Assembly (NCBI RefSeq): GCF_022565915.1
Contig: NZ_JAJOYX010000002.1
Location: 628,293-692,292 of the forward strand
Direction: 5' to 3'
DNA length: 64,000 nucleotides
Source: Nesterenkonia sp. LB17
Lineage (GTDB): Bacteria > Actinomycetota > Actinomycetes > Actinomycetales > Micrococcaceae
Below are positions 1,664 through 42,914 of the stretch, one piece after another. Positions within the stretch are counted from its first letter, which is position 1. The number at the start of each line of letters is the position of its first letter. Position numbers and translations under genes: made by a program. Under the pieces are notes generated by a model. The model saw only the letters and a list, made by a program, of their open reading frames with translations, was not told where the DNA came from and did no database searches.

Positions 1664-3859
1664 TCATCGCTGCAGCGCGGGCTCCATGCGTTCGCCCAGC
1701 TCGCCGGTGACCGACCGCACGAAGTTCTGTGAGACGTGGCTGTTGTCGTTATAGGTGATCGCCCCGCCGAGGACCGCGTAGCAGGTGGCCTCCTCCTCCG
1801 AACACAGCAGATCCTCCGTCGGCACGAAGTGGTAGTTCTCCGTATCGGCGAAGACCGTCTCGGACTGGGTCAGCCAGCGCTCCGTGACCCGGGTGTCCTC
1901 AAGGTCGTCGTTGCAGGATGACGGGTCCTCCTCGTTCAGCGCCACGCACTCTGGCAGCGTCTCCTCGTCATTGCGCTCGACGTTGAGCCGGGGAATCTCG
2001 CCCAGGACCACGACCGCCTTCTCGGCGTCGAGCCAGACCTGGATCGGGGTGAGGATGCTGCGCGCCGTACCGGTGAGCTCCACCTCGGAGTCCGGCAGGT
2101 CCACCTCGACGTCAGGGCCCGCGAAGCCACCGGTCATCTGGCTTCCAGCCACCACGACGGTCTCCACCTGGTCATCCTCGGAGAGCATTCCCAAGATCTC
2201 CAGATTGGCCTCTCCACAGGGGTCATCGGCCCCTGAATAGGTCGAGGCCCGTGGGGTGCAGCCGGAACGGGTCAGCACGAGCAGCTGTTTGCCGGCGTCC
2301 TGCGCGATCTCATCGAGGGCCGGCAGCCACATCGTGGCGTGGGAATCACCGAACACCGCGATGGTGCCGTCGGCCTCGGACGCCTCGGCGCCGAGCCAGC
2401 ACTCGGGGACCCCTGCGTCCTGCGCTTCGGCCTGGCACCCGGGATGCACCGGTGCCTGTGGCTGCTCGGCGACCTCGGCCGCCGAGGGCGTGAGCCCCAG
2501 CGTGCTTTCGAACGGGTCTCCACACTGGTCGGGATTCGCCAGCGCCCGGTAGCCGTAGCAGGGGTGGTCCTCGGAGAGCTCCGAGGCGGCGAACTCCTGC
2601 TCGACGACCTCCACCGAGTAGTGGGCCACGCCCACCACCAGGGCCATCCCTGCGCCGGCGGCGATCATGGTGCGCCAGGTGGGCAGCAGGACCTTCGCTC
2701 GGCGCAGCGGAGTCTCGTAGAACCGGGTGCTCAGCGCGGAGATCACGATGACCCCGAGGATCAGGGCGAGCTTGACGTCCCACTGCTCGGCGTTCTCCAG
2801 CAGATAGGGCGCGAAGATCACCACCGGCCAGTGCCAGAGGTAGATCGCATAGGACCAGTCGCCGATCGCGGTGACCGGGCGCAGCGAGAGCCACCAGTGG
2901 ATCCCGGTCCAGCGCCCCTTGCCGCCGAAGGCCAACAGCAGGGTCGCCCCGACGGTGGGGATCACCGCCGTCCAGCCAGGGAACGGGGTCATCTCGCTGT
3001 AGGCGCATGCCGAACCCAGGATCATCGCCAGTCCGACCCAGCCCAGCAGATTCCCCCAGCGTCCGGTGAACTGGCTGGCGCCGAGGACCAGGGCGAGCAG
3101 GGCGCCCAGCGCGAACTCCCAGATCCTGGTGGGCGTGATGAAGTACGCCTGGGCGGAGGACTCTGCGGTGTAGCCGATCGAGAAGGCCAGGGAGCTCGCG
3201 CCGAGGAGTCCGATCACCCAGAGGAAGATCCTCCGCGTGTAGTTGCGCGGCACCGCCTCAGCATCGGCCGGACGCCGACCGCGCCGAGCCAGGATGGCGA
3301 TGCCCAGGACGACGGCGAGCAGCACCGGCCACAGGACGTAGAACTGCTCCTCCACGGAGAGCGACCAGAAGTGTTGGACTGCGGTGGCACGTTCATCGGC
3401 CTTGGAATAGTCGATCGCGTCATCGGCCAGGACCCAGTTCTGCACATACAGCGTCGAGGCCATGATCTGCCGGCGGGTGCCCTGCCATTCGGTGCTGGGC
3501 AGGATCATCACCGCCGCGACCGCCGTGAGTCCCAGCACCAGCAGGCTCAGCGGCAGCAGGCGCCGGATCCTGCGCGCCCAGAACCGCCCCAGCCGGATCC
3601 GCCCGGTCCTTGCCGCCTCCTTGAACAGGTGCGCGGTGATCAGATAGCCCGAGATCACGAAGAACACGTCAACGCCCACGTACCCGCCGGTCAGATGCTC
3701 CGGCCAGAAGTGATAGGCGACGACGATCAGCACCGCCAGCGCACGCAGGCCCTGGATCTCCGGCTGGAACCGTCCGCCGCGCGAGGTCCGCCCGGTGTGC
3801 TCCGGCACGGTCGGCACAGCGGCCGGCATGGCGCAGGTGGGCTCAGCGCGTGTGGGCAT
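1664..3859 (-). CDS. Acyltransferase-3/SGNH membrane O-acyltransferase (group A, copy 1)
   Basis: A 731-residue OafA-type protein that would move an acyl (usually acetyl) group across the membrane and transfer it to an extracytoplasmic glycan. The N-terminal acyltransferase-3 domain starts near residue 31 (FQPEIQGLRALAVL, conserved His in VAYHFWP, DVFFVISGYLI, FWSLSVEEQFYVLWP) and has about ten membrane helices up to ~residue 380. The C-terminal extracytoplasmic SGNH domain has the nucleophile motif FGDSHATMW near residue 500 and the Asp/His motif NDNSHVS near residue 706. The frame extends further upstream, but ATG at 3859 directly precedes the conserved region and has a GAAGGA element before it. 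It is divergent from wecC and closely related to the gene at 5306-7480. Confidence 0.88.
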   Translation of the reverse strand: MPTRAEPTCAMPAAVPTVPEHTGRTSRGGRFQPEIQGLRALAVLIVVAYHFWPEHLTGGYVGVDVFFVISGYLITAHLFKEAARTGRIRLGRFWARRIRRLLPLSLLVLGLTAVAAVMILPSTEWQGTRRQIMASTLYVQNWVLADDAIDYSKADERATAVQHFWSLSVEEQFYVLWPVLLAVVLGIAILARRGRRPADAEAVPRNYTRRIFLWVIGLLGASSLAFSIGYTAESSAQAYFITPTRIWEFALGALLALVLGASQFTGRWGNLLGWVGLAMILGSACAYSEMTPFPGWTAVIPTVGATLLLAFGGKGRWTGIHWWLSLRPVTAIGDWSYAIYLWHWPVVIFAPYLLENAEQWDVKLALILGVIVISALSTRFYETPLRRAKVLLPTWRTMIAAGAGMALVVGVAHYSVEVVEQEFAASELSEDHPCYGYRALANPDQCGDPFESTLGLTPSAAEVAEQPQAPVHPGCQAEAQDAGVPECWLGAEASEADGTIAVFGDSHATMWLPALDEIAQDAGKQLLVLTRSGCTPRASTYSGADDPCGEANLEILGMLSEDDQVETVVVAGSQMTGGFAGPDVEVDLPDSEVELTGTARSILTPIQVWLDAEKAVVVLGEIPRLNVERNDEETLPECVALNEEDPSSCNDDLEDTRVTERWLTQSETVFADTENYHFVPTEDLLCSEEEATCYAVLGGAITYNDNSHVSQNFVRSVTGELGERMEPALQR

Positions 3860-4063: not shown

Positions 4064-5299
4064 TTGCCAAGGAACATCTCGCGCGTCGCCGTCATCGGGC
4101 TCGGCTACATCGGTCTGCCCACCGCCGCCATCCTCGCGGACCATGGCGTCACCACGATCGGCATGGACGTCTCCGAACGCAATGTCGCGGCGATCAACCG
4201 GGGCGAGGTCCCCTTCGTGGAGCCGGGTCTGCGAGAGGTCCTGCAGCGCGCGGTGATCAGCGGCACGCTGAGCGCGACCACGCAGACACCCGAGGCCGAC
4301 GCCTATATCGTCGCGGTGCCCACCCCCTTCACCGAGACCCACTCGGCCGACCTGTCCTACATCGAGGCTGCCGCAGACGGGATCGCCGCGAAGCTCACCG
4401 GTGGGGAGCTGATCATCCTTGAATCGACCTCCCCACCCGGGGCGACCGAACACCTCGCGCAGCGCATCCTGTCCGCCCGCCCCGATCTGAGCACCGCCGA
4501 CATCCTGGTCGCCCACTGCCCCGAACGCGTGCTGCCGGGGAAGATCATGGAAGAGATGATCACCAATGACCGGATCATCGGCGGACTGACGCCCGAGGCC
4601 GCCGAGGCCGCCCGGGATCTCTACGCAGCCTTCTGCAAGGGTGAGTTCCTGCTCACCGACGCTCGCACCGCCGAGATGGCGAAGCTCACCGAGAACAGCT
4701 TCCGCGACGTCAACATCGCGTTCGCCAATGAGCTCTCGGTCATCAGCCACAAGCTCGGGATCGACGTCTGGGAGCTCATCGAGCTCGCCAATCACCACCC
4801 GAGGGTCAACATCCTCCAACCCGGTCCCGGGGTCGGGGGTCACTGCATCGCAGTGGATCCGTGGTTCATCGTCGACGCCGCTCCGCAGGACGCGAACCTC
4901 ATCCGCACCGCGCGCCAGACCAACGACGCGAAGCCCGAATGGGTGCTCGGCCGGATAGAACAGGCTCTGGAATCGGCAGGGACCGGAGCCACGGTGGCGC
5001 TGCTGGGACTGGCGTTCAAGGCCAACATCGATGATCTGCGCGAGTCCCCCTCGCTGCACATCGCCGAGCAGCTCGCCCAGCGCGCCCCCGATGCGCAGCT
5101 GCTCGCGGTGGAACCACACATCGAGGCGCTTCCCGCGTCACTCGCCGGTTTCGGCAACGTCGAGCTGAGCGGACTCGACGAGGCGCTGGAGCGTGCCGAC
5201 GTCGTCGTGCTGCTGGTCGATCATCAGGTGTTCAAGGAGCTCCCGGTCTCACGCCTGGCAGACGCCACGGTGATCGACACCCGCGGCATCTGGCGCTGA
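4064..5299 (+). CDS. wecC: UDP-N-acetyl-D-mannosaminuronate dehydrogenase (WecC-like)
   Basis: A 411-residue NAD-dependent nucleotide-sugar 6-dehydrogenase. It would oxidise UDP-ManNAc twice to UDP-ManNAcA in the cytosol, supplying a uronic acid for a surface polymer. Visible features are the Rossmann motif VIGLGYIGLPTAA at the N terminus, ESTSPPGAT, PERVLPGKI, the central TENSFRDVNIAFANEL helix, and the catalytic cysteine in GVGGHCIAVDPWF near residue 266; LGLAFKANIDDLRESPS opens the C-terminal UDP-binding domain. The start is TTG at 4064, backed by AGGAAAGTGAT just upstream. Its expected partner, the 2-epimerase WecB, is encoded 25 kb away at 30412-31569. UDP-glucose dehydrogenase is the alternative, but the motifs and the wecB in the same window favour ManNAc. 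Confidence 0.88.
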   Translation: MPRNISRVAVIGLGYIGLPTAAILADHGVTTIGMDVSERNVAAINRGEVPFVEPGLREVLQRAVISGTLSATTQTPEADAYIVAVPTPFTETHSADLSYIEAAADGIAAKLTGGELIILESTSPPGATEHLAQRILSARPDLSTADILVAHCPERVLPGKIMEEMITNDRIIGGLTPEAAEAARDLYAAFCKGEFLLTDARTAEMAKLTENSFRDVNIAFANELSVISHKLGIDVWELIELANHHPRVNILQPGPGVGGHCIAVDPWFIVDAAPQDANLIRTARQTNDAKPEWVLGRIEQALESAGTGATVALLGLAFKANIDDLRESPSLHIAEQLAQRAPDAQLLAVEPHIEALPASLAGFGNVELSGLDEALERADVVVLLVDHQVFKELPVSRLADATVIDTRGIWR

Positions 5300-5305: not shown

Positions 5306-7480
5306 CTAGGAGTTCCCGGCCAGCGCCGGCTCCATCCGGTCGGTGAGCTCGGCGGCCGTGGAGCGCACGAACGTCCGGGCGAGGTGGCTGTTGTCCGAGT
5401 AGGTGATGGCACCGCCGAGCACGGCGTAGCAGGTGTCCTCGCGGCAGACCAGATCCTCGGTGGGCACGAAGTGGTAGTTCTCTTCCTCGGCGAAGACCTC
5501 GGCAGAACGGGTCAGCCAGCGGTCCCCCACCCGGGTGTCCTGAAGCGTCTCGTTGCAGGCAGAGAGGTCATCCTCGTTCAGCGCCACGCACTCCGGCAGG
5601 GTCTCCTCCTGCTCGTCGTTGCTCATCCGTGGGACCTCGCCGAAGACCACGACGTCCTTCTCCGCCTCGAGCCAGCGCTGGATCGGCTCGTACATCGCCA
5701 GTGCCGAATCGTCGAGGTCATGTTCCTCCGCGTCCAGACCGAGGTCGCGGCTGGGTCCGCCGAACTCGAAGTGCCGCTGGCTGGCCGCCACGATCACCGT
5801 CTCGACGCTCTCATCCTCGGAGAGCTGGTCGATGATCTCGGCGTTGGCCCTGAGGCACTCGCTGGAGTCGGCCCCGACCTCCCCGCCTCGGGGTGTGCAG
5901 GCTGAGCGCGTGAGCACCAGCAGCTGCTTCTCCTGCTCCTGGGCGATCTCGTCGAGCGCCGGGAGCCACATCGTGGCGTGGGAGTCGCCGAAAACCGCGA
6001 TCGTGCCGTCGGCCTCGGACTCCTCCGCCCCGAGCCAGCATTCCTGCACGCCGGGGGTGTCCTCGTCGGCCTGGCAGCCGGGGAACGCCTCTTCCTGGTA
6101 CTGCTCCGTCACCACCGCGGGCGTGGGAAACAGCCCGAGCTCGCCCTCGAACGGGGTGCCGCATTCGTCGGGGTTCGCCAGCGCCTGGTAGCCGTAGCAG
6201 GGGTGGTCCTCGGTGAGTGTGGAGTCAGCCGCGCTGGACTGCATCGTGGAGACCGCTGCGATCCCGGAGACGATGACCAGCACCATGCCGGCCCCGGCGG
6301 CGACCATCGTCCGCCAGGTGGGCAGCAGGATCTTCGCGCGACGTATCGGGGTCTCGAAGAATCGGGTGCTCAGCGCGGAGAGCCCGATGATGCCCAGGAT
6401 AAGCAGGACCTTCACGTACCAGAACCGGGCGGCGTCGCTGATATAGGGCGAGAAGATCACCACCGGCCAGTGCCAGAGGTAGATCGCGTAGGACCAGTCG
6501 CCGATCGCGGTGGCGGGTCGCAGCGAGAGCCACCAGTGGACCCCGGTCCCGGGTTCGCGGCCCCCGCAGGCCAGCACCAGAACGGTCCCCAGGGTCGGCA
6601 CAAGCGCGGTCCAGCCGGGGAACGGGGTCGCATCGGTGTAGAAGACGGCTGCGCCGGCGATCATCAGGAACCCCGCCCAGCCGAGCAGATTGCCCCACCG
6701 GCCGCTGAACTGCCGGGATCCCAGGACCAGTGCCGCGATCGCCCCCAGGGTGAACTCCCAGATCCGAGTCGGGGTCACGAAATAGGCCTGCGCGGGTGCT
6801 GCGGCGGTGTAGTAGATGGAGAACGCCAGTGAGAACGCCCCGAGCAGCCCGACGACCCACAGGAATGCCGCCCGGATCTGACGGCGCTCGAGCGCCGGAG
6901 CGCCGGAGCGCCGCTGCCGGAACGCCAGGAACATCAGCGTCAGCGCCAGCAGGACCGGCCACAGGATGTAGAACTGCTCCTCGACCGAGAGCGTCCAGAA
7001 ATGTTGAACCGCTGTGGCCCGCTCGTCCGCCTTGGAGTACTCCACGGCGTCGGCGGCGAGGATCCAGTTCTGCACGTAGAGCGTGGAGGCGATGATCTGG
7101 CGCAGGGTGGCCTGCCACGCGGTGCTCGGCAGGATCAGCACGGCGGAGATCGCGGTCAGCAGCAGCACCAGCAGGCTCAGCGGCAGCAGCCGGCGGATGC
7201 GGCGGGCCCAGAACTGGCCCAGCCGCACTCCCCCGGTCTTCACGGCCTCTTTGAACAGATGCGCGGTGATCAGGTAGCCCGAGATCACGAAGAACACGTC
7301 GACGCCGACGTAGCCGCCGGTGAGGCGGTCGGGCCAGAAGTGGTAGAGCAGCACGACCAGCACCGCCAGCGCACGCAGCCCCTGGATCTCGGGCTGGAAG
7401 CGGGTCGGGGCTCCGCCGGCGGCCGGATGAGGCCGCCCTGAGGCCGTCGCCTCCTCCGAAGAAGTCGAAGTCACGCTCAT
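5306..7480 (-). CDS. Acyltransferase-3/SGNH membrane O-acyltransferase (group A, copy 2)
   Basis: A 724-residue paralogue of the protein encoded at 1664-3859, with nearly the same membrane domain (FQPEIQGLRALAVLVVLLYH, DVFFVISGYLI, FWTLSVEEQFYILWP). The SGNH domain carries FGDSHATMWLPALDE near residue 498 and SDNSHLARTF near residue 697. The two copies differ most in the extracytoplasmic domain, which suggests different acceptor sites on the glycan. ATG at 7480 has GAGAGGCG upstream. Its stop lies 6 bases beyond the wecC stop, convergent with it. Together the two group A genes bracket wecC. Confidence 0.88.
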   Translation of the reverse strand: MSVTSTSSEEATASGRPHPAAGGAPTRFQPEIQGLRALAVLVVLLYHFWPDRLTGGYVGVDVFFVISGYLITAHLFKEAVKTGGVRLGQFWARRIRRLLPLSLLVLLLTAISAVLILPSTAWQATLRQIIASTLYVQNWILAADAVEYSKADERATAVQHFWTLSVEEQFYILWPVLLALTLMFLAFRQRRSGAPALERRQIRAAFLWVVGLLGAFSLAFSIYYTAAAPAQAYFVTPTRIWEFTLGAIAALVLGSRQFSGRWGNLLGWAGFLMIAGAAVFYTDATPFPGWTALVPTLGTVLVLACGGREPGTGVHWWLSLRPATAIGDWSYAIYLWHWPVVIFSPYISDAARFWYVKVLLILGIIGLSALSTRFFETPIRRAKILLPTWRTMVAAGAGMVLVIVSGIAAVSTMQSSAADSTLTEDHPCYGYQALANPDECGTPFEGELGLFPTPAVVTEQYQEEAFPGCQADEDTPGVQECWLGAEESEADGTIAVFGDSHATMWLPALDEIAQEQEKQLLVLTRSACTPRGGEVGADSSECLRANAEIIDQLSEDESVETVIVAASQRHFEFGGPSRDLGLDAEEHDLDDSALAMYEPIQRWLEAEKDVVVFGEVPRMSNDEQEETLPECVALNEDDLSACNETLQDTRVGDRWLTRSAEVFAEEENYHFVPTEDLVCREDTCYAVLGGAITYSDNSHLARTFVRSTAAELTDRMEPALAGNS

Positions 7481-7664: not shown

Positions 7665-7677
7665 CAGACTGGGCCCG
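7665..7677 (+). promoter_or_regulatory. Possible leaderless promoter of ftsY
   Basis: CAGACT at 7665-7670 ends six bases before the ftsY GTG, and no ribosome-binding site is visible. That spacing would place the transcript start at or next to the start codon. No good -35 element is visible, so confidence is low. Confidence 0.3.
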
Positions 7678-8876
7678 TGGATTTTGACGTACTTATTCTG
7701 TTCATCGTTCTTGCTGTGACTCTGCTCGGCACCCTGGGATTCTTCCTGGTGCAGGGCGGAAAGCTGCTGCCCAAGGACAAGCGTGAGCAATACCTGACCC
7801 AGCGCGACCCGGATGACCTCCCCTCCGGCGGGGTGGACACCCTTGAGGCTCCCACCGAAGACCGCCCGGGGACCGCGGAGCCGACCCTCGGCGACGGCGT
7901 CGACACCCTCGAGGAGCCGACGGTCGTTGAACCGACCGTCGAGACCCCCGAACCGGTGGCCGGACGTCTGGCCAGGCTGCGCGCCCGGCTGGTCAAGTCC
8001 AACAACATCTTCGGCAAGTCGCTGCTTGCGCTGCTGTCTCGCGACGAGATCGACGAGGACGTCTGGGAAGAGATCGAAGAGGTCCTGCTGATGGCGGACC
8101 TCGGCACCGATCCCACCATGGAGCTCGTCGACAGGCTCCGCGAACGGGTCAAGGTCGAAGGCACCAAGGACCCGGTCGTGGTCAAGGCGATGCTCACCGA
8201 AGAGCTGACTACCCTGGTCGATCCCACCCTTGATCGCCGACTCACGGTGACGGCGGAGGGTCGTCCCGCGGTCATCATGGTCGTCGGCGTCAACGGCGTC
8301 GGCAAGACCACCACGGTGGGCAAGCTGGCCCGGATGCTGGTCGCCGAGGACAAGGACGTGCTCCTCGGAGCGGCCGACACCTTCCGCGCAGCCGCCGCCG
8401 AACAGCTGAGCACCTGGGGTCACCGGGTGGGCGTGCCGACGGTGAAGTCCGACGTCGAAGGCGCTGACCCGGCGTCGGTGGCCTATGAGGCCGTGGACAA
8501 GGGGATCGAGCTCGAAGCCGACGTGGTCATGATCGACACTGCAGGCCGGCTGCAGAACAAGTCCAACCTGATGGACGAACTCGGCAAGGTCAAGCGTGTG
8601 GTGGAGAAGAAGTCCGCCGTCGACGAGGTCCTGCTGGTCCTCGACGCCACCACCGGTCAGAACGGCCTGAACCAGGCCAAGGTCTTCTCCGAGGTCGTCA
8701 ACGTCACCGGCATCGTGCTGACCAAGCTCGACGGCACCGCTCGAGGCGGCATCGTGGTCGCCATCCAGCGCCAGCTCGGCGTCCCGGTGAAGCTCATCGG
8801 ACTCGGTGAGGGGCCCGACGATCTCGCACCCTTCGACGCCGCCGAGTTCGTCGCCGCGCTGCTCGAAGACCACTGA
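7677..8876 (+). CDS. ftsY: Signal recognition particle receptor FtsY
   Basis: A 399-residue SRP receptor GTPase that docks SRP-ribosome complexes at the membrane for co-translational insertion. It has one N-terminal membrane helix (residues ~5-24), a Thr/Glu/Pro-rich acidic linker to ~residue 95, then the NG domain: GVNGVGKTTTVGK (P-loop, ~residue 204), LGAADTFRAAAAEQL, MIDTAGRLQNKSNLM (~287) and TKLDGTARGG (~349). The GTG start at 7677 has no ribosome-binding site but a -10-like hexamer just upstream, so it may be leaderless. In many actinobacteria ftsY follows smc; here smc lies 12 kb away and points toward ftsY, a sign of local rearrangement. Only a weak 7-bp hairpin (8881-8909) separates it from the convergent regulator gene. 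Confidence 0.97.
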   Translation: MDFDVLILFIVLAVTLLGTLGFFLVQGGKLLPKDKREQYLTQRDPDDLPSGGVDTLEAPTEDRPGTAEPTLGDGVDTLEEPTVVEPTVETPEPVAGRLARLRARLVKSNNIFGKSLLALLSRDEIDEDVWEEIEEVLLMADLGTDPTMELVDRLRERVKVEGTKDPVVVKAMLTEELTTLVDPTLDRRLTVTAEGRPAVIMVVGVNGVGKTTTVGKLARMLVAEDKDVLLGAADTFRAAAAEQLSTWGHRVGVPTVKSDVEGADPASVAYEAVDKGIELEADVVMIDTAGRLQNKSNLMDELGKVKRVVEKKSAVDEVLLVLDATTGQNGLNQAKVFSEVVNVTGIVLTKLDGTARGGIVVAIQRQLGVPVKLIGLGEGPDDLAPFDAAEFVAALLEDH

Positions 8877-9666: not shown

Positions 9667-9789
9667 CTGGTCCTCCGTTCCGGCTCACGCACTGGCTCTG
9701 GCCTCAGCCTACGGGCTCCCCCGCGCGGGGTTACGACATGGGAGTCCACCTCCGTGGTGCCTCACTGCCAAGTCCTCGGGAACTACAAG

Positions 9790-9821
9790 CCGTGCCTCAG
9801 ATAAAAGTCCCCGCGAAACCT
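9790..9821 (+). repeat. Left terminal inverted repeat of the insertion sequence
   Basis: It begins CCGTGCCTCAGATA and continues into AAAGTCCCCGCGAAACCT. It matches the complement of 11148-11180 apart from a four-base block and one substitution. It runs up to the 3' end of the transposase gene. Confidence 0.75.
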
Positions 9822-11115
9822 AACCGACCTGCCGATTGAATCGGATACCACCAGGATCAGGCATCGCGGTCGCGGTCGCGGTCCGAACCTCTCGCTCAAG
9901 CTCTCGAGTCTTCTCCCCGGCCAGCCTGATCAGCTGTTGTTGGATCTGATCGATCTCCGCAGCAATGGCCATGGGGTTCAGTCGATCGTGGTGATCTCCG
10001 AGTTCACTCTGCTGAGCGGGGCCCAGGATTCCAGAGGCCACCAACCTGCGAAACGGTGTCTGCGGAGCGTCGTAGATCCGCTTGCGTCGACCGAGCGTGT
10101 CGGTGGACCAGCGGATCGGTTTCTTCGTCGGGGTCAAGAAGTTCAACCGCTCATTGACCAGGGGCCAGAGCCGGTTCAGCAGCGCCAGCTCCGCCGCGGT
10201 GTCATACCGGTAGTAGAACCCATAACGCCGAACCACGTGCCCGTTCTTGGACTCTATGGTGGCCTGATCGTTCTTCTTGTAGGGCCTGGACCGGGTGAAG
10301 TAGATCTGTCTCTGCCCGGCCCAGCTGACCAGGTCGTGGTTGATGAACTCCCCGCCGTTGTCGAAGTCCAAGCCGCTGAGCAGGTACGGAATTGATTCCA
10401 GAGCGGCTTCCATGACGGTCAGGATATGTATCCGTGCGTTGTTGCGGATCGCGCGGGTGAACACCCAGCCGGTGTGCACATCTGTGAGGTTCACCGAGCG
10501 GGCGAACTCACCTTTGAGGGTGGGGCCGCAGTGGGCGACGGTGTCGACTTCGAAGAATCCGGGTTCGTCCTCGACCTCGTCACCGGCCCTACGGATGTTG
10601 ATCGAGGCGCGAAGCAGCGATCCGGGCTTGGTCGTGGACCTTCCGCGCAGCGGCTCCTTCGCCTTTGCCGGGGCAAGGTAGCGATCAATCGTCGCGGCGC
10701 TCATCGCGAGCAGCTCCTCGCGCACCTCGGGGCTGTATCGATCCTGGCCCGGGATCAGCGAGCCATGGCGTTGCATTGCTTCGATCCATTCGCTCATCGA
10801 GGCAGCCAGGTATTTCCCACACAGCCCACCGGAGACCGACCAGATCTGTTGCAGCACCACCAGAGAGTCGTAGGAATATCTGCGTGGACGACTCTTGCGT
10901 CGGTCCAGGACAGCCACGGTCGCGCTTGTCCGCCCGGGTGGTTGGGTGATGCGTCGGCGCAGCTGCTGACGGGCGTGGTCCCGGTTCCAACCGGTGATCC
11001 CGACAACGGTGTCCAGGATCGCTGCCTTTTGCTTCTTCGTCGCCCGGGCGTAGGCCTGCGCGTACTTCTTGGTCACTTCGATGCGGGTCCTCATCGACAC
11101 GTCCCTGTCAGCCAT
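9820..11115 (-). CDS. DDE transposase of the insertion sequence
   Basis: A 431-residue transposase with a helix-turn-helix-like N terminus (ITGWNRDHARQQLRRR) and an integrase-type catalytic core. The DDE residues are readable as the first Asp in FFEVDTVAHCG, the second in GLDFDNGGEFINH, and the Glu in ATIESKNGHVVRR. ATG at 11115 is preferred because the longer frame would begin inside the terminal repeat. The order of motifs and the ESKNG signature match the group usually filed as ISNCY/integrase-core transposases; IS481 is a more distant alternative. The gene is intact, so the element may still be mobile. Confidence 0.88.
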   Translation of the reverse strand: MADRDVSMRTRIEVTKKYAQAYARATKKQKAAILDTVVGITGWNRDHARQQLRRRITQPPGRTSATVAVLDRRKSRPRRYSYDSLVVLQQIWSVSGGLCGKYLAASMSEWIEAMQRHGSLIPGQDRYSPEVREELLAMSAATIDRYLAPAKAKEPLRGRSTTKPGSLLRASINIRRAGDEVEDEPGFFEVDTVAHCGPTLKGEFARSVNLTDVHTGWVFTRAIRNNARIHILTVMEAALESIPYLLSGLDFDNGGEFINHDLVSWAGQRQIYFTRSRPYKKNDQATIESKNGHVVRRYGFYYRYDTAAELALLNRLWPLVNERLNFLTPTKKPIRWSTDTLGRRKRIYDAPQTPFRRLVASGILGPAQQSELGDHHDRLNPMAIAAEIDQIQQQLIRLAGEKTRELEREVRTATATAMPDPGGIRFNRQVG

Positions 11116-11147
11116 ACCCCATCGTTGCCGTGCCACAGGTCCTGCGG

Positions 11148-11180
11148 AAGATTTCGCGGGGAGAAGTATCTGAGGCACGG
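11148..11180 (-). repeat. Right terminal inverted repeat of the insertion sequence
   Basis: The complement reads CCGTGCCTCAGATA, then CTTC, then TCCCCGCGAAAT, matching the left end at 9790-9821 with a four-base difference block. Confidence 0.75.
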
Positions 11181-24216: not shown

Positions 24217-24226
24217 GGGTGCGGAC

Positions 24227-24523: not shown

Positions 24524-24563
24524 GGCTTGTACCTGTCCCTTCGCGCGCATGGTGTCTGCCACA

Positions 24564-34285: not shown

Positions 34286-36403
34286 TTAGTAGAGATCGGG
34301 AATCTGTCGTTGAAGTTTCTCGTCCAGGTATGGGGCCAGCGTCTCAACATAGGCGTTCGTCAAGTGGCTGTCGTCTCGGTAGACAGCTACATTTCCGATG
34401 ACGGCTGGACACTCCTGGGCAGGACAGATGCGATCCGTCATATCCACCGTATGGATCGAGTCTTGCTGACCATAAGGCTCTAGAGGGTTCTGGTCCTCGA
34501 AGACGCTGAAATCCGGTCCGCATTCGGACGGTGATTTGCCCGAGGCCAGGCACTGAGGAGCGTCCTGTTCCGGGCGGGGCGTTGCGCGCATGAGCAGCAA
34601 GTCAGTACCCGTCTCAGTGATCTCCTCCCAGCGATCAGGGGCCCCGTCCCAGATATGTTCCTTCGGGCCACTCTGGAAGGCAACCGTTCCTGGAGTCACC
34701 ACGAGATCCGGTGACCGCTCCTGGACAACCTTGACGAAGTCCCGATTCCACTGGTCACAGGTGTTGTTCTCCGGATCCTCTAACGGACCGAACCGGCAAC
34801 CGCTCTTGTCCACCACAAGAAGCTCCCAGTTGTTCTGCTCAGCGAGCAGCGAGAATGCGTGGTGCCATTGCCCAGCATGAGATCCACCCGCGAGCATGAC
34901 AGTGGCGCTCGGATTCTCGGGCTTATTCAGATCCTCGCAGACTAGCACTGCGCCAGAGCCGGGATCATTGCCCACCTTCTGGCGACAGCCCCACTGGTGA
35001 TACGTCGGTTGATCCTGCGCAATGGAGTCCAAGGCCGGGTAGATCTCAGCTGCTGGAACGGGCTTGATCACCGACGACTCGATAGCGTCTGCGCCCGGAT
35101 ACTGTTCGGAATCCACCCCGGTCATGGTGTACCCGTCGGGGATTGGTGGACTGGTGAAGAGCAGCACTGCGGAGAGCGCCGCAGCACCGACAGCAATGCC
35201 ACCGCCGGCCACCGCCAATTGGCGCCACTGAGGCAGGGCCTTGGCTATCCCGATCGGCGTCTCGACGAAGCGATGTGTGAGCCAGGCAAGACACAAGGAC
35301 AGGAAGAACAAGAGCAGACCACCTCGGACACCCACCGCAGGATAATCGCGAATCTCGAGATAGAAGATCAGCAACGGCCAGTGCCACAGATAGAGGCCGT
35401 AGGCAAGGTCACCAATCCACGCCAGCAACCGCGCCGACAATAACTTTGCCGCCGTCCAGGGGTGGTCGAGTGCAGCCCCGGCTGGTCCCGCCGAGATGAT
35501 GATGAACGCAAATCCGGCAAGCGGCCACAGTGCGAGGGGCCCGGGGAAGACTTGCGCACCATCGAGGGCGAAGCCTGCGGTAAGGACCAATCCCAAGCCG
35601 ATCCAACCGACTAAGGGGCGGATGACTGCGGGCACTGTCATTCTTGCGGCCAGCAACGCAAGGAGACCACCAAAAGCGAGTTCCCACAGCCTAGTGCGTG
35701 TCATCAGGTACGCCTGGTCCTGACTGATGGTCTGCATGTAGATGGCGTAGATGAGGGACGCGACCAGAACGAGGCCCACCAGAAGCATCATGATCGTTGT
35801 GGCCGATCGCCGAACCCGCTTGGCGATCCACACGGCGAGGATCGCGACGACCGGCCAGACAAGGTAGAACTGACCTTGAACCGAGAGCGACCAGAAGTGC
35901 TGGAAGGGGCTGGTGCCAGCCCCCGCAGCCTCATAGGACATCTGCGCCCTGAGCAGCTCCAAATTCTCGAAGTAGAGCAGCGAAGCTCTGGCCTCAGCCA
36001 AGAGCTGGAGACGATCGGTCACGGGCATGACGAAGAACCCGACCACAGTGGTGACGCCAATCACCAGCACTGCGGGTGCAAGCAATCTTCGAGCAAGTCG
36101 AGACAAGTACCGACCCACGTCGATTCGTCCACCAGTCTCGGCAGCTTCCCTAAGGAGCATCGCAGTGAAGAGGAAACCGGAGACTGCCAGGAAGATGTCG
36201 ATTCCACCGGAAACCCGTCCTGCTCCGAAAAGATGGAACAACACGACGCCGAGGATGGCCAGCCCCCGGAGACCATGAAGTTCTGGGCGGAATCGACGCC
36301 CGGGAAGACCGCGGACTAGTTGCTGTTCCTGCAGCCGAGCTGTATCGCTCCCGCTAAAGCTGGATTCCGCTCCAGGCCTAGAGGCCGTGACGTCACTTCT
36401 CAC
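34286..36403 (-). CDS. Acyltransferase-3/SGNH membrane O-acyltransferase (group B, copy 3)
   Basis: A 705-residue group B enzyme: [50 protein letters not shown], about ten membrane helices, then an SGNH domain with GGSHAGQWHHAF (near residue 508) and YRDDSHLTNAYVETL (near 679). GTG at 36403 is chosen because the residues after it (VRSDVTASRPG) resemble the start of copy 1; it overlaps the pyruvyltransferase stop by 11 bases. The frame extends upstream to 36481 without a better start. It is the last gene of a leftward three-gene operon with a pyruvyltransferase and a glycosyltransferase. Confidence 0.85.
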   Translation of the reverse strand: MRSDVTASRPGAESSFSGSDTARLQEQQLVRGLPGRRFRPELHGLRGLAILGVVLFHLFGAGRVSGGIDIFLAVSGFLFTAMLLREAAETGGRIDVGRYLSRLARRLLAPAVLVIGVTTVVGFFVMPVTDRLQLLAEARASLLYFENLELLRAQMSYEAAGAGTSPFQHFWSLSVQGQFYLVWPVVAILAVWIAKRVRRSATTIMMLLVGLVLVASLIYAIYMQTISQDQAYLMTRTRLWELAFGGLLALLAARMTVPAVIRPLVGWIGLGLVLTAGFALDGAQVFPGPLALWPLAGFAFIIISAGPAGAALDHPWTAAKLLSARLLAWIGDLAYGLYLWHWPLLIFYLEIRDYPAVGVRGGLLLFFLSLCLAWLTHRFVETPIGIAKALPQWRQLAVAGGGIAVGAAALSAVLLFTSPPIPDGYTMTGVDSEQYPGADAIESSVIKPVPAAEIYPALDSIAQDQPTYHQWGCRQKVGNDPGSGAVLVCEDLNKPENPSATVMLAGGSHAGQWHHAFSLLAEQNNWELLVVDKSGCRFGPLEDPENNTCDQWNRDFVKVVQERSPDLVVTPGTVAFQSGPKEHIWDGAPDRWEEITETGTDLLLMRATPRPEQDAPQCLASGKSPSECGPDFSVFEDQNPLEPYGQQDSIHTVDMTDRICPAQECPAVIGNVAVYRDDSHLTNAYVETLAPYLDEKLQRQIPDLY

Positions 36404-37760
36404 TGAACATCTTTGAGATGCGGCGCTGTCCGGACCTGACCACTCGCTTGCCGAAAAGTCCCAAGTCGTTCCCGCGAGCACTGAGACGAGTACGCAACGG
36501 GTATCCGGACCAGGAAAACTTCACTTTGGCCTTGGGCATCGCGGGTTCTGTACTACGTGGCCCCGTGATGGGGAGCGCCGCCTCGAGGGCATCGAGATCG
36601 ATACTCAGACGAGGCAGGGTTGCCTGTTTGCTCACCTTCAGGAGTTCGAGGGTCTCGAGCTCAGTCGACACCATCTGATGTTCCGCAACAACCGAGGCGT
36701 CGAGCGTGGAGAAGTAGTCATCGAACTTGAAGCGTGCGCCAGCCAGCGCTTCGTCTGTGACGTTCAGCCACACCCAAGGCACGCCGAACGCCTGGGCAAT
36801 GATCAGTCCGTGCAGCGATGTAGAGACGCAGATGTCGGAGCTTGCGATCTGATCGATCACTGTGGTCAGGTCATTCCGCACGTCGACCACGCTCACACCG
36901 TCGGTAGAGAGGGAGTCCAGCCATTTCCGATGTGAGTAGTGCGGAACGAACGACACGCCGGAAGTTCCGACATTCTCGACAGTCGGTGTGTATACACGCG
37001 GAAGCAGCAGAGCCGGATCTCCGAACACCTCTGGCACATCCCAGTCCAGCTGTGATGTCAGTTGGGCGTGTGTGAGCTTTCCTCTGACCGCATGCACACG
37101 AACGCCCTTGAGCTGCGTCAGATCGTGCAGATGCTTTTCGTTGATCTCACGGATGAGTCCACTTCCCCAGATGTCAGCGTTCGGACGCTTGATCATTTGA
37201 ATCACAGAACCCACGCTGACCAACGTGCGTCCCGGGACCTTCATGAATCGAGCGTTGACCGTCGGCCGGCCGGAATACGCCGAGATTACCCAGGGACCGA
37301 TAGAGTCTCCGAAGTTCGAGCGCTTGTCCCACCAGAATCCGGCGACGGGGTTCCTCGTTGGATGCGCCTTGCCCGCCTTGAGCAGCTCAAGAGCTGAGCT
37401 TTCCGAGATGAGAAACTGAGCCCACCCCGCAACGCGGTCCAAGACCGTCCGCGAAGACGCTGTCTCAGAGAAGTGCTCAATGACGTGGTGCTCACGAGGC
37501 TCAGCCACCAGCAGGGCTTGACCCAGAAGCGTGTTCCGGAGGAAGCGTTCGCTGGAGTCGGACTCGCCAAAAGCAATGAGTTCGGCTCCCCCAGCCTCGT
37601 TGGTGCGCAGCTCCAAAGACACGGTTCCATCACGCGTCTCCAACTCGAACACAGCTGAAGCTCGCTGGGACTTCCAACGGATGGCAACGCCCAAGACGCT
37701 CAAGGGCCGATGGTCTCGTGCTGCGGCGTGTGCTCTGCTAGCCGGTTGGGGGGCGCTCAT
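36393..37760 (-). CDS. Polysaccharide pyruvyltransferase family protein
   Basis: A 455-residue protein whose central part fits the polysaccharide pyruvyltransferase family, which transfers pyruvate from phosphoenolpyruvate to sugars as a ketal. Motifs are WWDKRSNFGDSIGPWVISAY (~residue 143), DIWGSGLI, VHAVRGKLTHAQL, VFGDPALLLPRVY and SSDICVSTSLHGLIIAQAFGVPWVWL (~330). The ~110 N-terminal residues and a basic C terminus (LRTRLSARGN, GKRVVRSGQRR) are extra; the latter may touch the membrane. Pyruvyl ketals would add negative charge to the surface polymer. The gene follows the large glycosyltransferase and overlaps the acyltransferase downstream. The sugar substrate is unknown. Confidence 0.82.
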   Translation of the reverse strand: MSAPQPASRAHAAARDHRPLSVLGVAIRWKSQRASAVFELETRDGTVSLELRTNEAGGAELIAFGESDSSERFLRNTLLGQALLVAEPREHHVIEHFSETASSRTVLDRVAGWAQFLISESSALELLKAGKAHPTRNPVAGFWWDKRSNFGDSIGPWVISAYSGRPTVNARFMKVPGRTLVSVGSVIQMIKRPNADIWGSGLIREINEKHLHDLTQLKGVRVHAVRGKLTHAQLTSQLDWDVPEVFGDPALLLPRVYTPTVENVGTSGVSFVPHYSHRKWLDSLSTDGVSVVDVRNDLTTVIDQIASSDICVSTSLHGLIIAQAFGVPWVWLNVTDEALAGARFKFDDYFSTLDASVVAEHQMVSTELETLELLKVSKQATLPRLSIDLDALEAALPITGPRSTEPAMPKAKVKFSWSGYPLRTRLSARGNDLGLFGKRVVRSGQRRISKMFSEK

Positions 37761-37896: not shown

Positions 37897-40686
37897 TCAC
37901 CCGATCCGGTGCAGGTAGTCGCTGACAGTGCGATGTGACTGGACGAACGCCAGACCACGTTCCTGTTGCGCGACGTACTCCTGAGGATTCCACGAACTGT
38001 CAATAACTTCGGGCACTTCGCGCGGCTCGGCGTAGATCGCTGCCTCACCGAACTGTCCTCGCAGCCGGGGCGGAAGGATGCAGACTACTCCCTGCCGCAT
38101 TGCTTCGACGATGTAGGGTTCGGTCGATTCATCGGCCGAGTCACGGGTGTGTCCGAGGTAAAAGTCGATCCGACCCAGATATGCGCTCGGTCCTTCGGGA
38201 GAGGGATACTCGATGGTCCAACCCAGCGGGGCCAGCGGTTCCGCGAGAATACGCTCTCGGACCATCAGTTCCGGGCGACCCTCGAGAAGAACTTCAGCAG
38301 ATCCGTTGGTCGGCAGGAGCGACTCCCGTGCCGACTTGGTCTTAGGCCAGTTCCGTTCCTCCTCATCCATCGGACGTCCCAAGATTGGTCGATTTCCAAA
38401 GTCGGGAACACGCGTCGGTCCATCTTTGGGCGCGATGCCTAGCCAGAGTTCTTTGGAGAGCTGAGTGCTGGGCAACATCGCACGCAAAGCCTCGTAGATG
38501 AAGGACGACTGGGCCGCCCAGACTGGGTGCTGTCCAAAGATCTCGCCGCAGTTTCGAGAGACGTCCGCGGCGTCGTAACTCTGGCGACTCTGTGACATGA
38601 GGCCAGGCAGCTGATTTGCGACGACCACAATCCTCTCCGGCTGTATGGCTGATTCGGCTGCGGGCAAGAGTTGCATCACTGTGGGCCAGTGAATGAGCAT
38701 CAGCTCTGCAGTCGCAACTCGGTCCAGTGTCAACCTGTCTACGGAACCGTCGAGGAAGAGACGTTCCAACACTGGAACTATCCTGCGCTTAGATGCGCTC
38801 GGTATCAATCCGTTCTGAAGGGCGACGATTCCTACCTTGAGCCCGGAGTCCAAGGCAGTGCGAATCTCACGTTCGAGTGTGAGAGCGTTGCCTCCCTGAA
38901 GCCCGAATTCCGAAAGATAGATGACGTCGTAGTGCGGTACGTGACTCTTATCGCGTTCCGGCAAGAATGACGTCGGTCCCACGAATCTTCTGTCACCGGG
39001 ATCTTCAGGCATGAACGGAGATGCCCCGCTTCGAATGCGCTTGTGCCAATCACCGTAGGCATCCTGGTAGATCTCTCGATCAGGATGCCGGTAGCCCAAA
39101 CCGAAGTCGTTGCTCGTCAGATTCCCGTCACCCAATAGAGAGAACGCCATGGGGACATGATCAGTGGCGACCAGCTTCTCGCCGAAGGCGATCTCAAATC
39201 TTGTCCGATACTCCCCATCTGCGGACTTCCGCACAGCATCCCAGTAGCCGAGTTTTTCCATGACTTCAACACGTCGATACATGATCGACGCGAAGCTGGG
39301 ATGCACTACTCGATCAGGACCCCACCGGACGAGGAACTTGAGGTCTTCGTCAACTCGAACCCAGTTGACGATGTTGGCGTGCTTTCGGGGGTGTGCCTGG
39401 AGATCTCGTGCTTGACGCTCGATCTTCTGTGGATGATGCCAATCATCTTTGTCCGCCACAGTGACAAATTCGCCCTGAGCCGAAGCGAATGCCTCGTTTC
39501 GAACGGCGTACGCCCCACGGTTCTGCTCGCAGAAGGTCAGTCGGATACGAGAATCCGTCCGGGCCCAAGCTTCTAGCTGCTGCCGATACGGCGTCGAAGT
39601 CCCATCCTCGAAATACTGCGGTGAGGCGTCGTCGATGATCAAGACCTCGATGTTGGTCCATGTCTGATTCAGAAGCGACTGGATGGCAACATCTGTGGAG
39701 GCATCTGGTTCGTAGATCGGCATGATGATCGAGACAAGCGGCAGATCCGGTTCCTCGAGAGGCTGAGCACGCACTCGGATCTTGTCGAACGAAGGACTGT
39801 CGCCCTCTTCGAAATCCAACGGTGCCAGTCCGATCTCGGTGAATCGTTCGTTCAGGCGGGCCAGCCATTCACCCTTCTTGTGAGGCAACCCTGTGACATT
39901 TGGGTTGACTGCATTGAGCTGAAGAAATCTTTGCGAGAACGCGCGCCATTCGACTGGTTCTCGATAGTCCAACACCTCATCCGCACGAGAAAACTGCGCA
40001 TTCCACGTGAGAAGGTCCGAGTATAAGGAACGGTCGACGCCGTCGAAGTGCCGATCGATGTTGTAGATGCGGTTGGCAAGCTCGTAGAGAGTGAGGCAAT
40101 TCCTCAGATCCCATTCGCTCAGTCGCTGACTGTAGAGAACGCGCGCAAGCCCGAAGAATCCCGGTCGCCACAGGGCGCGTCTCAACGCAGCCTGCTCTTC
40201 GAGGTTCTCGGGATGAAGAAGGGCCTGTTCCGCGAGCTTCATCAAAGTGCGATAGCCATAGGCCCCGTGTGTGGCACTCAGCGCCAGCACCTCTCGAGAT
40301 CCTCGGGATCGCGTTTCACGCGCAAGCCTGATGAACCAATTAAGGCGATCGGGCCTTGAGCGTAGTTCCGCTGCCCACTGGTGCAGCACCTCGTCTGCCT
40401 CGAGTGCCTGTTCCTGCCGCTCCAACGAAGGCTGTCGCCCCATCCGACGAGGAGCAACGCGGTCTAGCCTGCGGTTTATCCGTCTCGTCAGCTGTCGGAA
40501 GCCGAATATCTCGACAGCTAGAAGAACCGCGAGCCCAAGGAGCAATCCGAGAACCACCATGCTCAAAACGTCGGCGGTTGACCCAATCAGGGCTACGGCG
40601 GCAGCCAAAACGAACACCGTTACTGCAGTCCACTGCATCTTCGTCAGACTGCGGATCTTGCCGGCTAGCGGGCGGACAAAACTCAC
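37897..40686 (-). CDS. Large membrane-anchored two-domain glycosyltransferase
   Basis: A 929-residue protein. Two membrane helices at residues ~20-65 anchor it, followed by a helical region to ~residue 310. A family 2 GT-A domain starts near residue 325 (LPLVSIIMPIYEPDASTD, VLIIDDASPQYF, CEQNRGAYAVRNEAF, VTVADKDDWHHPQKIERQ). From ~residue 600 a second region (HYDVIYLSEFGLQGGNALTL, later RIVVVANQLPGLMS and PYIVEAMRQGVVCILPPRL) looks like a GT-B glycosyltransferase. GTG at 40686 has AAGGAACC upstream. It is the first gene of the leftward operon and is divergent from the acyltransferase at 40794. A bifunctional polymerising or bridging transferase is plausible but not shown. Confidence 0.8.
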   Translation of the reverse strand: MSFVRPLAGKIRSLTKMQWTAVTVFVLAAAVALIGSTADVLSMVVLGLLLGLAVLLAVEIFGFRQLTRRINRRLDRVAPRRMGRQPSLERQEQALEADEVLHQWAAELRSRPDRLNWFIRLARETRSRGSREVLALSATHGAYGYRTLMKLAEQALLHPENLEEQAALRRALWRPGFFGLARVLYSQRLSEWDLRNCLTLYELANRIYNIDRHFDGVDRSLYSDLLTWNAQFSRADEVLDYREPVEWRAFSQRFLQLNAVNPNVTGLPHKKGEWLARLNERFTEIGLAPLDFEEGDSPSFDKIRVRAQPLEEPDLPLVSIIMPIYEPDASTDVAIQSLLNQTWTNIEVLIIDDASPQYFEDGTSTPYRQQLEAWARTDSRIRLTFCEQNRGAYAVRNEAFASAQGEFVTVADKDDWHHPQKIERQARDLQAHPRKHANIVNWVRVDEDLKFLVRWGPDRVVHPSFASIMYRRVEVMEKLGYWDAVRKSADGEYRTRFEIAFGEKLVATDHVPMAFSLLGDGNLTSNDFGLGYRHPDREIYQDAYGDWHKRIRSGASPFMPEDPGDRRFVGPTSFLPERDKSHVPHYDVIYLSEFGLQGGNALTLEREIRTALDSGLKVGIVALQNGLIPSASKRRIVPVLERLFLDGSVDRLTLDRVATAELMLIHWPTVMQLLPAAESAIQPERIVVVANQLPGLMSQSRQSYDAADVSRNCGEIFGQHPVWAAQSSFIYEALRAMLPSTQLSKELWLGIAPKDGPTRVPDFGNRPILGRPMDEEERNWPKTKSARESLLPTNGSAEVLLEGRPELMVRERILAEPLAPLGWTIEYPSPEGPSAYLGRIDFYLGHTRDSADESTEPYIVEAMRQGVVCILPPRLRGQFGEAAIYAEPREVPEVIDSSWNPQEYVAQQERGLAFVQSHRTVSDYLHRIG

Positions 40687-40793: not shown

Positions 40794-42914
40794 ATGCCCC
40801 GAAAGCCTCTTGACCTGAATCCGCGCGCCGTCGCAAGACCGGCCGTATCCCGCTGGGATCTTCCGGAGCGCCGCTACCGACCAGAGCTGCACGGCCTGCG
40901 CGGGCTCGCCATCGCCGGAGTGGTGCTGTTTCACCTCTTTGGCGCGGGCCGGGTCTCCGGTGGCATCGACATCTTTCTCGCTATCTCAGGCTTTCTCTTC
41001 ACCGCCATGCTGCTGCGCGAGGTGGGCACCACCGGGCGCATCGACCTCATCCGCTACCTTGCGCGGCTGGCCCGAAGAATCCTCGCTCCCGCGGCGCTGG
41101 TCATTGCCGTGACCACCCTGGGGGGGCTGCTGCTGCTGCCGCTCACCCAGCACGCACAGCTTCTCACCGAGGCTCGAGCATCGCTTCTGTACTTCGAGAA
41201 CATCGAGCTCATCCGCTCGCAGCTCTCCTACGAAGCTGCCGGAGCCGAGACGAGCCCCTTCCAACACTTCTGGTCCCTCTCCGTGCAGGGCCAGTTCTAC
41301 CTCGTCTGGCCCGTCGTGGCGCTGCTCGCCGTCTGGCTCGCACGCCGGACCAGGTTCTCCCTCACCGTAACGATGGCCTCGCTGATCGGCCTGCTCATGG
41401 CGGCCTCGTTGACGACGGCCATCGTGGTCCAGCAGCAAAACCAGCAGGAGGCCTATCTTCTGACCCAGGCACGCATCTGGGAGCTTGGATTCGGCGGCCT
41501 TATGGCGCTTATCGGGGCCAGGCTCGTGCTGCCTGCTCGACTGCGAACCCTCGCGGGATGGCTGGGGCTTGCGCTCGTCGTCAGCTGTGGATTCGTCCTG
41601 GACGGGGCCGCGCTCTTCCCGGGTCCGTGGGCGCTCTGGCCGTTGGCCGGCATAGCGCTGATCTTCGCCTCGTCATCGCCCGGAGAGTCGGACCGGAACC
41701 CAGTGCATCGCGGCACCGCCGCCGGCCTGCTGGCCAGGGCCCCCTTCACCAGGCTCGGCGATATTGCCTACGGCCTCTTTCTCTGGCACTGGCCGCTGTT
41801 GATCTTCACCTTGGAATTCCGGGACGCCCCCGCCCTCTCCCTCGTGGACGCAGCGATCCTGCTCGCCGTCTCGCTCCTGCTGGGCTGGCTGACTTTCCGC
41901 TTCGTAGAAGAGCCGCTCGCTCGTGCGAGGCGCTCCCCTGAGCGACCGGCCCGCAAGGCGGGGCTCGTGACGCTTTCCCTGGCCGCCGGCACTCTGGTCA
42001 TCGGCGGGGTCACAACTACGACTTATGTGCAGATGACCACCGCTCCCCAGGAGGACGGGATGGCGATGGCGGGCGTGGACCGCTTGCTCTATCCGGGTGC
42101 TGACATCATCCAGGCCGACGAATCCGCCCTAGACGTTGAGTTCTATCCCGAGCTTGGCGGCATCTCCCGCCGGGTGCCCGAGTATGCCCGGACCGACTGT
42201 CACCAGCCCACCGGCGATCAGCCCGGTACTGGAGAGGTCCTGGTCTGCGAAGATGCCGCACAGCCGCAGGAACCCGCCCAGACGATCATGCTTGCAGGCG
42301 GTTCGCACGCGGGACATTGGCACAACGCGTGGATCATCCTGGCCGAGAAGCACAACTGGGAGGTCCTGGTGTCGACCAAGGGCGGATGTGTCTTCCGCGC
42401 AAATGACCCCGCGGAGACCTCGACCTGCGATGACTGGAACGACCAATTCCCAGAGGTGCTGGCCGAACGGGAGCCAGATCTGGTGGTCACACCCGGCACG
42501 GCGATCCCCCGAGAAAACGGGAATGAAGAGATCCACCACGGCGCGCAGGAACGTTGGAAACAGATCACCGACACCGGGAGTCATCTTCTTCTCATGCGCG
42601 GCACTCCCCGCACCGAGGAGAATATCCCGGACTGCTTGGCAGATGGCGGGGATGAGCTCTCCTGCGCCCCAGAGTTCGGCAAGTACGCCGACGTAGATCC
42701 GTTGAGCCAGCTCAACCTCCCGGAGAACACCTACATCCTTGACCTCACCGAACACTTCTGCCCCGAGCAGAAGTGCTCAGCGGTCATCGGCAACGTCTTG
42801 GTCTACCGAGACAGCCACCATCTGACGAACGAATACGTGGAGACGATGGTTCCCCACCTCGAACGCGCGCTCCAGAAATCGGTTCCGGAACTCTTCGCCT
42901 CCCAGGCAAGTTGA
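40794..42914 (+). CDS. Acyltransferase-3/SGNH membrane O-acyltransferase (group B, copy 4)
   Basis: A 706-residue group B enzyme: [50 protein letters not shown], then an SGNH domain with GGSHAGHWHNAW (near residue 502) and YRDSHHLTNEYVETM (near 674). The ATG at 40794 has no clear ribosome-binding site; a TAGCCT element ends eight bases upstream, so a leaderless transcript is possible. It stands directly before the exporter genes, in the same orientation, and so may be made with them. Confidence 0.88.
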   Translation: MPRKPLDLNPRAVARPAVSRWDLPERRYRPELHGLRGLAIAGVVLFHLFGAGRVSGGIDIFLAISGFLFTAMLLREVGTTGRIDLIRYLARLARRILAPAALVIAVTTLGGLLLLPLTQHAQLLTEARASLLYFENIELIRSQLSYEAAGAETSPFQHFWSLSVQGQFYLVWPVVALLAVWLARRTRFSLTVTMASLIGLLMAASLTTAIVVQQQNQQEAYLLTQARIWELGFGGLMALIGARLVLPARLRTLAGWLGLALVVSCGFVLDGAALFPGPWALWPLAGIALIFASSSPGESDRNPVHRGTAAGLLARAPFTRLGDIAYGLFLWHWPLLIFTLEFRDAPALSLVDAAILLAVSLLLGWLTFRFVEEPLARARRSPERPARKAGLVTLSLAAGTLVIGGVTTTTYVQMTTAPQEDGMAMAGVDRLLYPGADIIQADESALDVEFYPELGGISRRVPEYARTDCHQPTGDQPGTGEVLVCEDAAQPQEPAQTIMLAGGSHAGHWHNAWIILAEKHNWEVLVSTKGGCVFRANDPAETSTCDDWNDQFPEVLAEREPDLVVTPGTAIPRENGNEEIHHGAQERWKQITDTGSHLLLMRGTPRTEENIPDCLADGGDELSCAPEFGKYADVDPLSQLNLPENTYILDLTEHFCPEQKCSAVIGNVLVYRDSHHLTNEYVETMVPHLERALQKSVPELFASQAS

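Follow-up and report, generated by a model that had tools for sequence, protein, structure and literature searches.

The stretch of DNA analysed here (the window) comprises 64,000 nucleotides of the genome of Nesterenkonia sp. LB17, an actinobacterium of high GC content (contig NZ_JAJOYX010000002.1, positions 628,293 to 692,292, forward strand) and contains six genes that pair an acyltransferase-3 (AT3) membrane domain with an SGNH domain. The initial annotation had proposed this composition, and domain searches bear it out at the coordinates in Table 1: every one of the six products matches PF01757 (Acyl_transf_3; 72-97 bits against a cut-off of 31) and, C-terminal to it, PF19040 (the AT3-fused SGNH domain; 73-114 bits against a cut-off of 27), so that membership by both domains, in this order and above both cut-offs, is 6/6. 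In the whole genome, PF19040 matches (E <= 0.001) fall at exactly these six sites and nowhere else. PF01757 also matches five other open frames of the genome, which have no PF19040 domain. In the following, the six genes are called A1, A2 and B1 to B4.

Table 1. Features of the locus, in window coordinates; percentages are identities to the genomes or copies named
Feature	Position	Strand	Remarks
GT_a, family-2 glycosyltransferase, 3' part	1..1639	+	PF00535; 91% to G020, 71-75% to G019/G023/G009
A1, OafA/OatA-type AT3-SGNH acyltransferase	1664..3859	-	91% to G020 orthologue
WecC, UDP-ManNAc dehydrogenase	4064..5299	+	NF008286, 573 bits (cut-off 459)
A2, OafA/OatA-type AT3-SGNH acyltransferase	5306..7480	-	96% to G020 orthologue
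FtsY, housekeeping, between the two locus halves	7677..8876	+	TIGR00064 above cut-off
Transposase	9820..11178		weak IS30/IS481-like family-model match
smc, intact, housekeeping border of cassette half	20500..24216	-	TIGR02168 above cut-off
wecB fragment, 5' part	24217..24523	-	84-87% to intact wecB copies
Upstream region of the glycosyltransferase absent here	24524..24692	+	as after wecB in G023, G019
B1, SucT-type AT3-SGNH acyltransferase	24693..26828	+	76-79% to G019/G023
Inverted second copy of glycosyltransferase upstream region and start	26934..27137	-	~155 nt, 95% to 24564-24717
smc fragment, 393 nt and a ~88-nt piece	27133..27613	-	96% and 95% to intact smc
B2, SucT-type AT3-SGNH acyltransferase	27759..29837	-	no close orthologue in relatives compared
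WecB, intact, UDP-GlcNAc 2-epimerase	30412..31569	-	TIGR00236, 455 bits (cut-off 210)
GTrham, glycosyltransferase with rhamnosyl-transferase-like domain, cassette	31772..33154	+	PF11316; 47-53% in four best genomes
ATP-grasp ligase, cyanophycin-synthetase-like, cassette	33206..34237	+	far below model cut-off
B3, SucT-type AT3-SGNH acyltransferase	34286..36403	-	no close orthologue in relatives compared
PyrT, polysaccharide pyruvyl transferase, cassette	36393..37760	-	PF04230
GT2big, large family-2 glycosyltransferase, cassette	37897..40686	-	PF00535
B4, SucT-type AT3-SGNH acyltransferase, positional resident beside exporter	40794..42914	+	89% to G020
ABC-2 glycan exporter permease (Wzm/TagG-like)	42985..44001	+	PF01061; NF050109 below cut-off
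ABC exporter ATPase (Wzt/TagH-like)	43926..45035	+	PF00005; TagH models below cut-off

From its gene content, the region is probably a wall- or surface-glycan locus that is split around a block extending from ftsY to smc. The two A genes flank wecC, and about 17 kb separates them from the B genes; this interval holds ftsY, a GntR gene, the transposase, a putrescine-type island, amt, an MFS gene and smc, of which ftsY, the transposase and smc were checked by family models, while several of the other names come from reading the translations. At the left end, the 1033-aa GT_a frame enters the window from upstream (position 59 is merely the first start codon inside it), and another glycosyltransferase sits upstream, outside the window. 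The start of A1 is uncertain, its frame being open to 3982.

The part of the interval between ftsY and amt (8950-17211) consists of the GntR regulator, the transposase and a putrescine-type catabolic set comprising a permease and glutamine-synthetase-like, PuuD-like, aldehyde dehydrogenase and SDR genes, all named from their translations. The GntR and permease genes are also present in the fetched stretches of 6 of the 17 relatives compared below.

The division of the six proteins into two subfamilies, also proposed initially, is confirmed by their identities: A1 and A2 are 68% identical, B1 to B4 are 50-57% identical to each other, and A and B proteins share 28-31%. Judged from these sequences, they represent two old lineages, of which A1/A2 is OafA/OatA-like and B1 to B4 resemble SucT. 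The motifs quoted for the B group hold in part. Only B3 and B4 have RPELHGLRGL exactly; B1 has [11 protein letters not shown] and B2 has RPEIHGLRGL; the second motif, [14 protein letters not shown], is found in B1 and B3, whereas B2 and B4 read ...AISGFLF.

All six proteins keep the R-X10-H of TMH1 and the SGNH catalytic residues (block-I Ser, block-V Asp and His), which are described in PMC7448272 as required for full OafA activity; in these residues and in the order of the two domains they agree with OafA/OafB and OatA. The same paper gives the GG-F/Y-XGV-D/P/V motif as a mark of characterised fused acetyltransferases. This motif is present in A1 and A2, whereas B1 to B4 lack three of its residues, in the TMH1-2 region, and retain the Asp. 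The two groups also differ in three further respects: A1/A2 have a Glu (in SVEEQ), a long TMH1-2 loop and GDSH, and B1 to B4 have Gln in place of the Glu, a short loop and GGSH. The Glu shared with OafA/OafB and OatA probably corresponds to OafB Glu143, having been mapped solely by its spacing from a conserved Trp; mutagenesis reported in PMC9833829 found that residue to be important in OafA and OatA. A sequence search of solved structures with B4 and A2 gave no match at E <= 0.01.

The features of the B group are common to SucT. QGQ, the short loop and GGSH occur in B1 to B4 as well as in six sequences that score above the cut-off of the SucT model NF058601 (L154-L159). None of our six proteins attains that cut-off of 1275 bits: B1 to B4 score 341-426 bits by hmmscan (264-426 in the genome scan) and A1/A2 223-241 bits. 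The acceptor polymer of the B proteins is presumably different from that of mycobacterial SucT, without which lipoarabinomannan and arabinogalactan are no longer succinylated (PMC10503756).

The split extends beyond this genome. In an alignment of 69 rows, 25 rows have Glu, a 10-residue loop and GDS, and 43 have Gln and a loop three residues shorter (35 with GGS, 4 with GDS, 3 with GAS and 1 with GSS); the remaining row (L098_7555) is apparently frame-broken and fits neither state. The Glu/Gln and loop states track phylogeny, and the rows do not count as independent observations. A wider pattern count over 132 sequences, namely those from loci L039 and up that fit our regular expressions, with several non-independent sequences per genome, gives a less clean division. 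All 44 Glu sequences have the long loop and 37/44 have GDSH; the short loop was found in 78 of the 88 Gln sequences and the long one in 2, and 8 could not be parsed. GGSH alone is not diagnostic, because 17/88 Gln sequences have GDSH.

Six is a high number for such genes. In a genus sample of 30 genomes, to which this one belongs, it is the maximum number of PF19040 matches (six in 3 genomes, four in 1, three in 5, two in 6, one in 4 and none in 11), where matches were counted at E <= 0.001 and include a few partial ones as well as the sole match of G003 and one of the two in G006, which lie below the curated cut-off. It is also the highest count among 149 genomes of the family with completeness >= 90%, where six matches occur in 3 genomes and five in 3.

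To place the genes in their context, the locus was compared with stretches fetched from 17 congeners; several of these stretches are short, partial or end at a contig border. A common outline is visible in these stretches: glycosyltransferases and A genes lie by wecC/ftsY, smc adjoins wecB, a variable middle follows, and B4, the exporter, ndk, folC and ileS are often present. The ends are conserved (the wecC side, wecB beside smc, and the ABC exporter beside ndk-folC-ileS), whereas the middle is divergent and of lower GC. With respect to the nearest relative, G020, wecC, A2, ftsY, wecB and ileS are 94-97% identical, and A1, GT_a and B4 89-91%. The flank genes together (GT_a, A1, WecC, A2, FtsY, GntR, APC, Amt, MFS, SMC, WecB, Ndk, FolC and IleRS) show 84-97% identity and a GC3 of 83-91, in contrast to 40-64% and 64-71 for the middle genes GTrham, ATPgrasp, PyrT and GT2big; across the middle including B2 and B3, GC3 is 64-74. 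B1 has a GC3 of 80. No sharp line divides resident from cassette genes, because B4 (89%, GC3 80) and TagG/TagH (83%, GC3 76/70) are intermediate.

The six genes differ in their distribution among these relatives. A1, A2 and B4 have positional orthologues: A1- and A2-type genes are both found in 6/17 relatives, one A gene in 7/17 and none in 4/17, and an intact B4 orthologue occurs in 8/17. B1 has orthologues only in G019 (76%) and G023 (79%), where they follow a large glycosyltransferase adjoining wecB, and B2 and B3 have no match above 59% identity among the relatives compared. Single-copy orthologues in fixed order, which had been named as evidence against variation at this locus, are therefore found in part for A1, A2 and B4 and not for B1 to B3. 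The variation itself is real, as a difference between species, which is the level at which replacement was assessed; its form, however, looks like that of a cassette replaced around the genes, with scars at smc/wecB. Where orthologues could be paired, dN/dS is well below 1 for A1, A2, B1 and B4 (A1-G020 0.19, A2-G020 0.08, B4-G020 0.23, B1-G023 0.19, B1-G019 0.18); the value for B3 is 0.17, at saturated dS.

Gene loss has also left signs in the genus. In G026, B4 has decayed to pieces (L144:7094-7754), the only trace of the gene there, and in G001 a B-type gene is in two pieces (L136:7034-9313).

The scars lie between smc and wecB. Of the 12 relatives whose stretch shows both genes, 11 have ~120 bp or less between the end of wecB and the start of smc (G005 has 1.8 kb), whereas here the interval is 6.2 kb and contains, in order, the wecB fragment, the glycosyltransferase upstream region, B1, the inverted copy, the smc fragment and B2, followed by intact wecB. 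The wecB fragment has an internal gap of ~60 nt, ends after ~350 nt of the gene, and is 84% identical to the intact copy of this genome and 86-87% to those of G023 and G004. The first residues of B1 match the start of the glycosyltransferase that is absent here and present in G023 and G019. The smc fragment consists of the first 393 nt of smc and the further piece of ~88 nt; it is 96.2% identical to G020 and 95.9% to the intact copy, and the 5' end of the intact smc is 94.1% identical to G020 and 94.7% to G023, so that either copy may be the native 5' end. An assembly error is an unlikely source of the fragments, because they differ by at least 4% from the intact copies and have internal gaps.

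B1 is enclosed by the inverted repeat of ~155 nt (24564-24717 and 26964-27118, 95% identical), an arrangement that could suggest an invertible element with the repeats acting as a switch. The upstream region and start are the same in both copies of the repeat, however, and the gene would therefore be readable in either orientation; moreover, the transposase at 9820-11178 is the sole mobile-element gene among the proteins scanned, and no recombinase was found among them. We consider such a switch highly improbable.

The relationships of the six genes were examined with a tree of 69 rows, built by a quick method, to which 16 of the 78 loci from other genera contributed rows and from which genus ORFs shorter than 580 aa were omitted (5/46: two split-gene pieces of G001, two pieces cut by the locus border in G012, and one fragment of G015). 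A1 and A2 fall in related clades, B1 and B4 in different clades, and B2 and B3 on separate deep branches. Plain duplication in tandem, by which all six paralogues would have arisen in place and then diverged, fits A1/A2, which form related clades in the genus, lie on either side of wecC and share 68% identity. For the B genes it is disfavoured by the tree, in which B1 and B4 group apart with orthologues from other species, as well as by the cassette neighbours of B2 and B3, which differ from those of the relatives; as an account of the whole set it is unlikely.

The initial annotation had also raised the possibility that the copies serve as a store of variants through which the surface is altered by recombination between them, and had proposed comparing the membrane and SGNH domains for recombination. 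We ran this comparison with AT3-only and SGNH-only trees of 51/69 rows (again by a quick method), and found no exchange among the six: A1, A2, B1 and B4 stay with their own orthologues in both trees, while neither tree resolves B2 and B3 well. No two of the genes share an exact run longer than 38 nt (B2-B3), compared with 27-78 nt for orthologue pairs, and all B copies have diverged to 50-57%. This run is long for genes 58% identical in DNA, but the two also have an unusually similar segment at a conserved motif (28825-28898 and 35346-35419, 86%). The number of copies does differ between species, from 0 to 6, and a candidate domain exchange exists outside the window, in a gene of G019/G023 described below. 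On balance, a reservoir of this kind is very unlikely, and the corresponding claim is not upheld.

Instead, the locus is probably best explained by replacement of cassettes with retention of acyltransferases, and it is probably because cassettes were replaced while acyltransferases were kept that the count is so high. By this explanation, A1, A2 and B4 would be long-standing residents, B2 and B3 members of the present cassette, and B1 a leftover of an earlier cassette of a kind still present in G019 and G023. The cassette would have been swapped by recombination in the flanking smc/wecB sequence, and old and new pieces would have stayed side by side as broken wecB, upstream region-B1, inverted copy, smc 5' end, B2 and wecB. 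We infer this order of events from the arrangement of the pieces; since direct and inverted orientations are mixed, more than one event would be needed.

Turnover of cassettes is ordinary in kind for surface-glycan loci. In pneumococcal cps and enterobacterial O-antigen loci, variable cassettes lie between conserved flanks and are exchanged by flank recombination. The present locus is like these in its conserved ends, its divergent low-GC middle and its putative flank recombination; it differs in that the housekeeping block ftsY...smc splits it and in that acyltransferases appear to survive the replacement. It thus shows a possible route by which surface-glycan loci accumulate decorating enzymes, at a stage where the scars are still readable. 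Three plasmid records match window positions 20000-32000, over <= 8% of the query and in sequence resembling smc and wecB, and 65 and 59 phage records were found with A2 and B4 as queries, all below 60% identity.

As for the polymer, UDP-ManNAcA is probably made by WecB and WecC, because both exceed their equivalog cut-offs, and the product of the locus would then probably contain ManNAcA. The locus also carries genes for its assembly and decoration (glycosyltransferases, the pyruvyl transferase and the ATP-grasp ligase) and an exporter with ABC-2 permease and ATPase Pfam domains, for which the specific TagH, Wzm/Wzt and galactan models score below cut-off. The ATP-grasp ligase, which has a tblastn match in the fetched stretches of 13/17 relatives, may couple an amino acid to a uronic acid. 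Micrococcus, which we take to be kin of this genome, provides a wall polymer for comparison. The teichuronic acid of Micrococcus luteus is a ManNAcA-Glc repeat (PMC3005890); it shares ManNAcA with the polymer predicted here from genes, whereas this locus has additional genes for pyruvyl and acyl decoration. A literature search for the polymer chemistry of this organism, and another for this locus or multiple AT3-SGNH genes in Nesterenkonia, found none, and the words acyltransferase, acetyltransferase, teichoic and capsul are absent from the main text of PMC8875376.

By analogy with the mechanism proposed for OafB/OatA, the AT3 domain would take an acyl group from acyl-CoA and the SGNH domain would pass it to glycan hydroxyls outside the membrane. 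We infer that the six enzymes O-acylate the ManNAcA glycan, with acetyl groups probably added by the A proteins and succinyl groups perhaps by the B proteins. That one surface polymer is acylated at several positions is plausible, because the genes sit among those for UDP-ManNAcA, glycosyltransferases and a glycan-type exporter. Six would, however, be a large number of acceptor sites for one repeat unit, and known AT3-SGNH proteins modify peptidoglycan (OatA) or LPS (OafA, OafB) (PMC9558356); some copies may accordingly act on other targets, such as peptidoglycan or a glycolipid, and merely be located here. As all six genes lie here and the genome has no others, we regard this as possible but less likely than not.

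A broader reading, which we offer tentatively and hold to be rather doubtful, is that the AT3-SGNH proteins of Actinomycetota form two classes readable from sequence: one of acetyl type, with Glu, the long loop and GDSH, and one of SucT type, with Gln, the short loop and in many cases GGSH, which would use succinyl-CoA or another larger acyl-CoA. That the Glu/Gln split means a different acyl donor is a guess. If it is true, A would add neutral acetyl and B several acidic groups to one wall glycan, and cassette exchange would shift the surface charge while older acylation enzymes are kept as an evolving toolkit. The split (Glu versus Gln, loop length) is a simple one in a large family for which donor specificity is difficult to predict, and this genome offers a natural set of both kinds of enzyme side by side that can be used for testing it.

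The candidate domain exchange mentioned above is a third AT3-SGNH type in G019/G023 (L118:13226-15448, L123:952-3174), whose AT3 domain groups with A and whose SGNH domain groups with B. It may be a domain chimera, although the program flags long branches.

Clusters of AT3-SGNH genes are not unique to this locus, and smaller ones exist elsewhere. Among the 78 loci from other genera, homologues of at least 500 aa number one in 54, two in 18, three in 4, four in 1 and none in 1. The locus with four is that of Corynebacterium sp. CNJ-954, where the homologues lie in tandem within ~10 kb (L098:5014-15086) and one of them is the apparently frame-broken L098_7555. In the class sample, contig 49 of G227 has four matches within ~20 kb, counted by the SucT model and not by PF19040.
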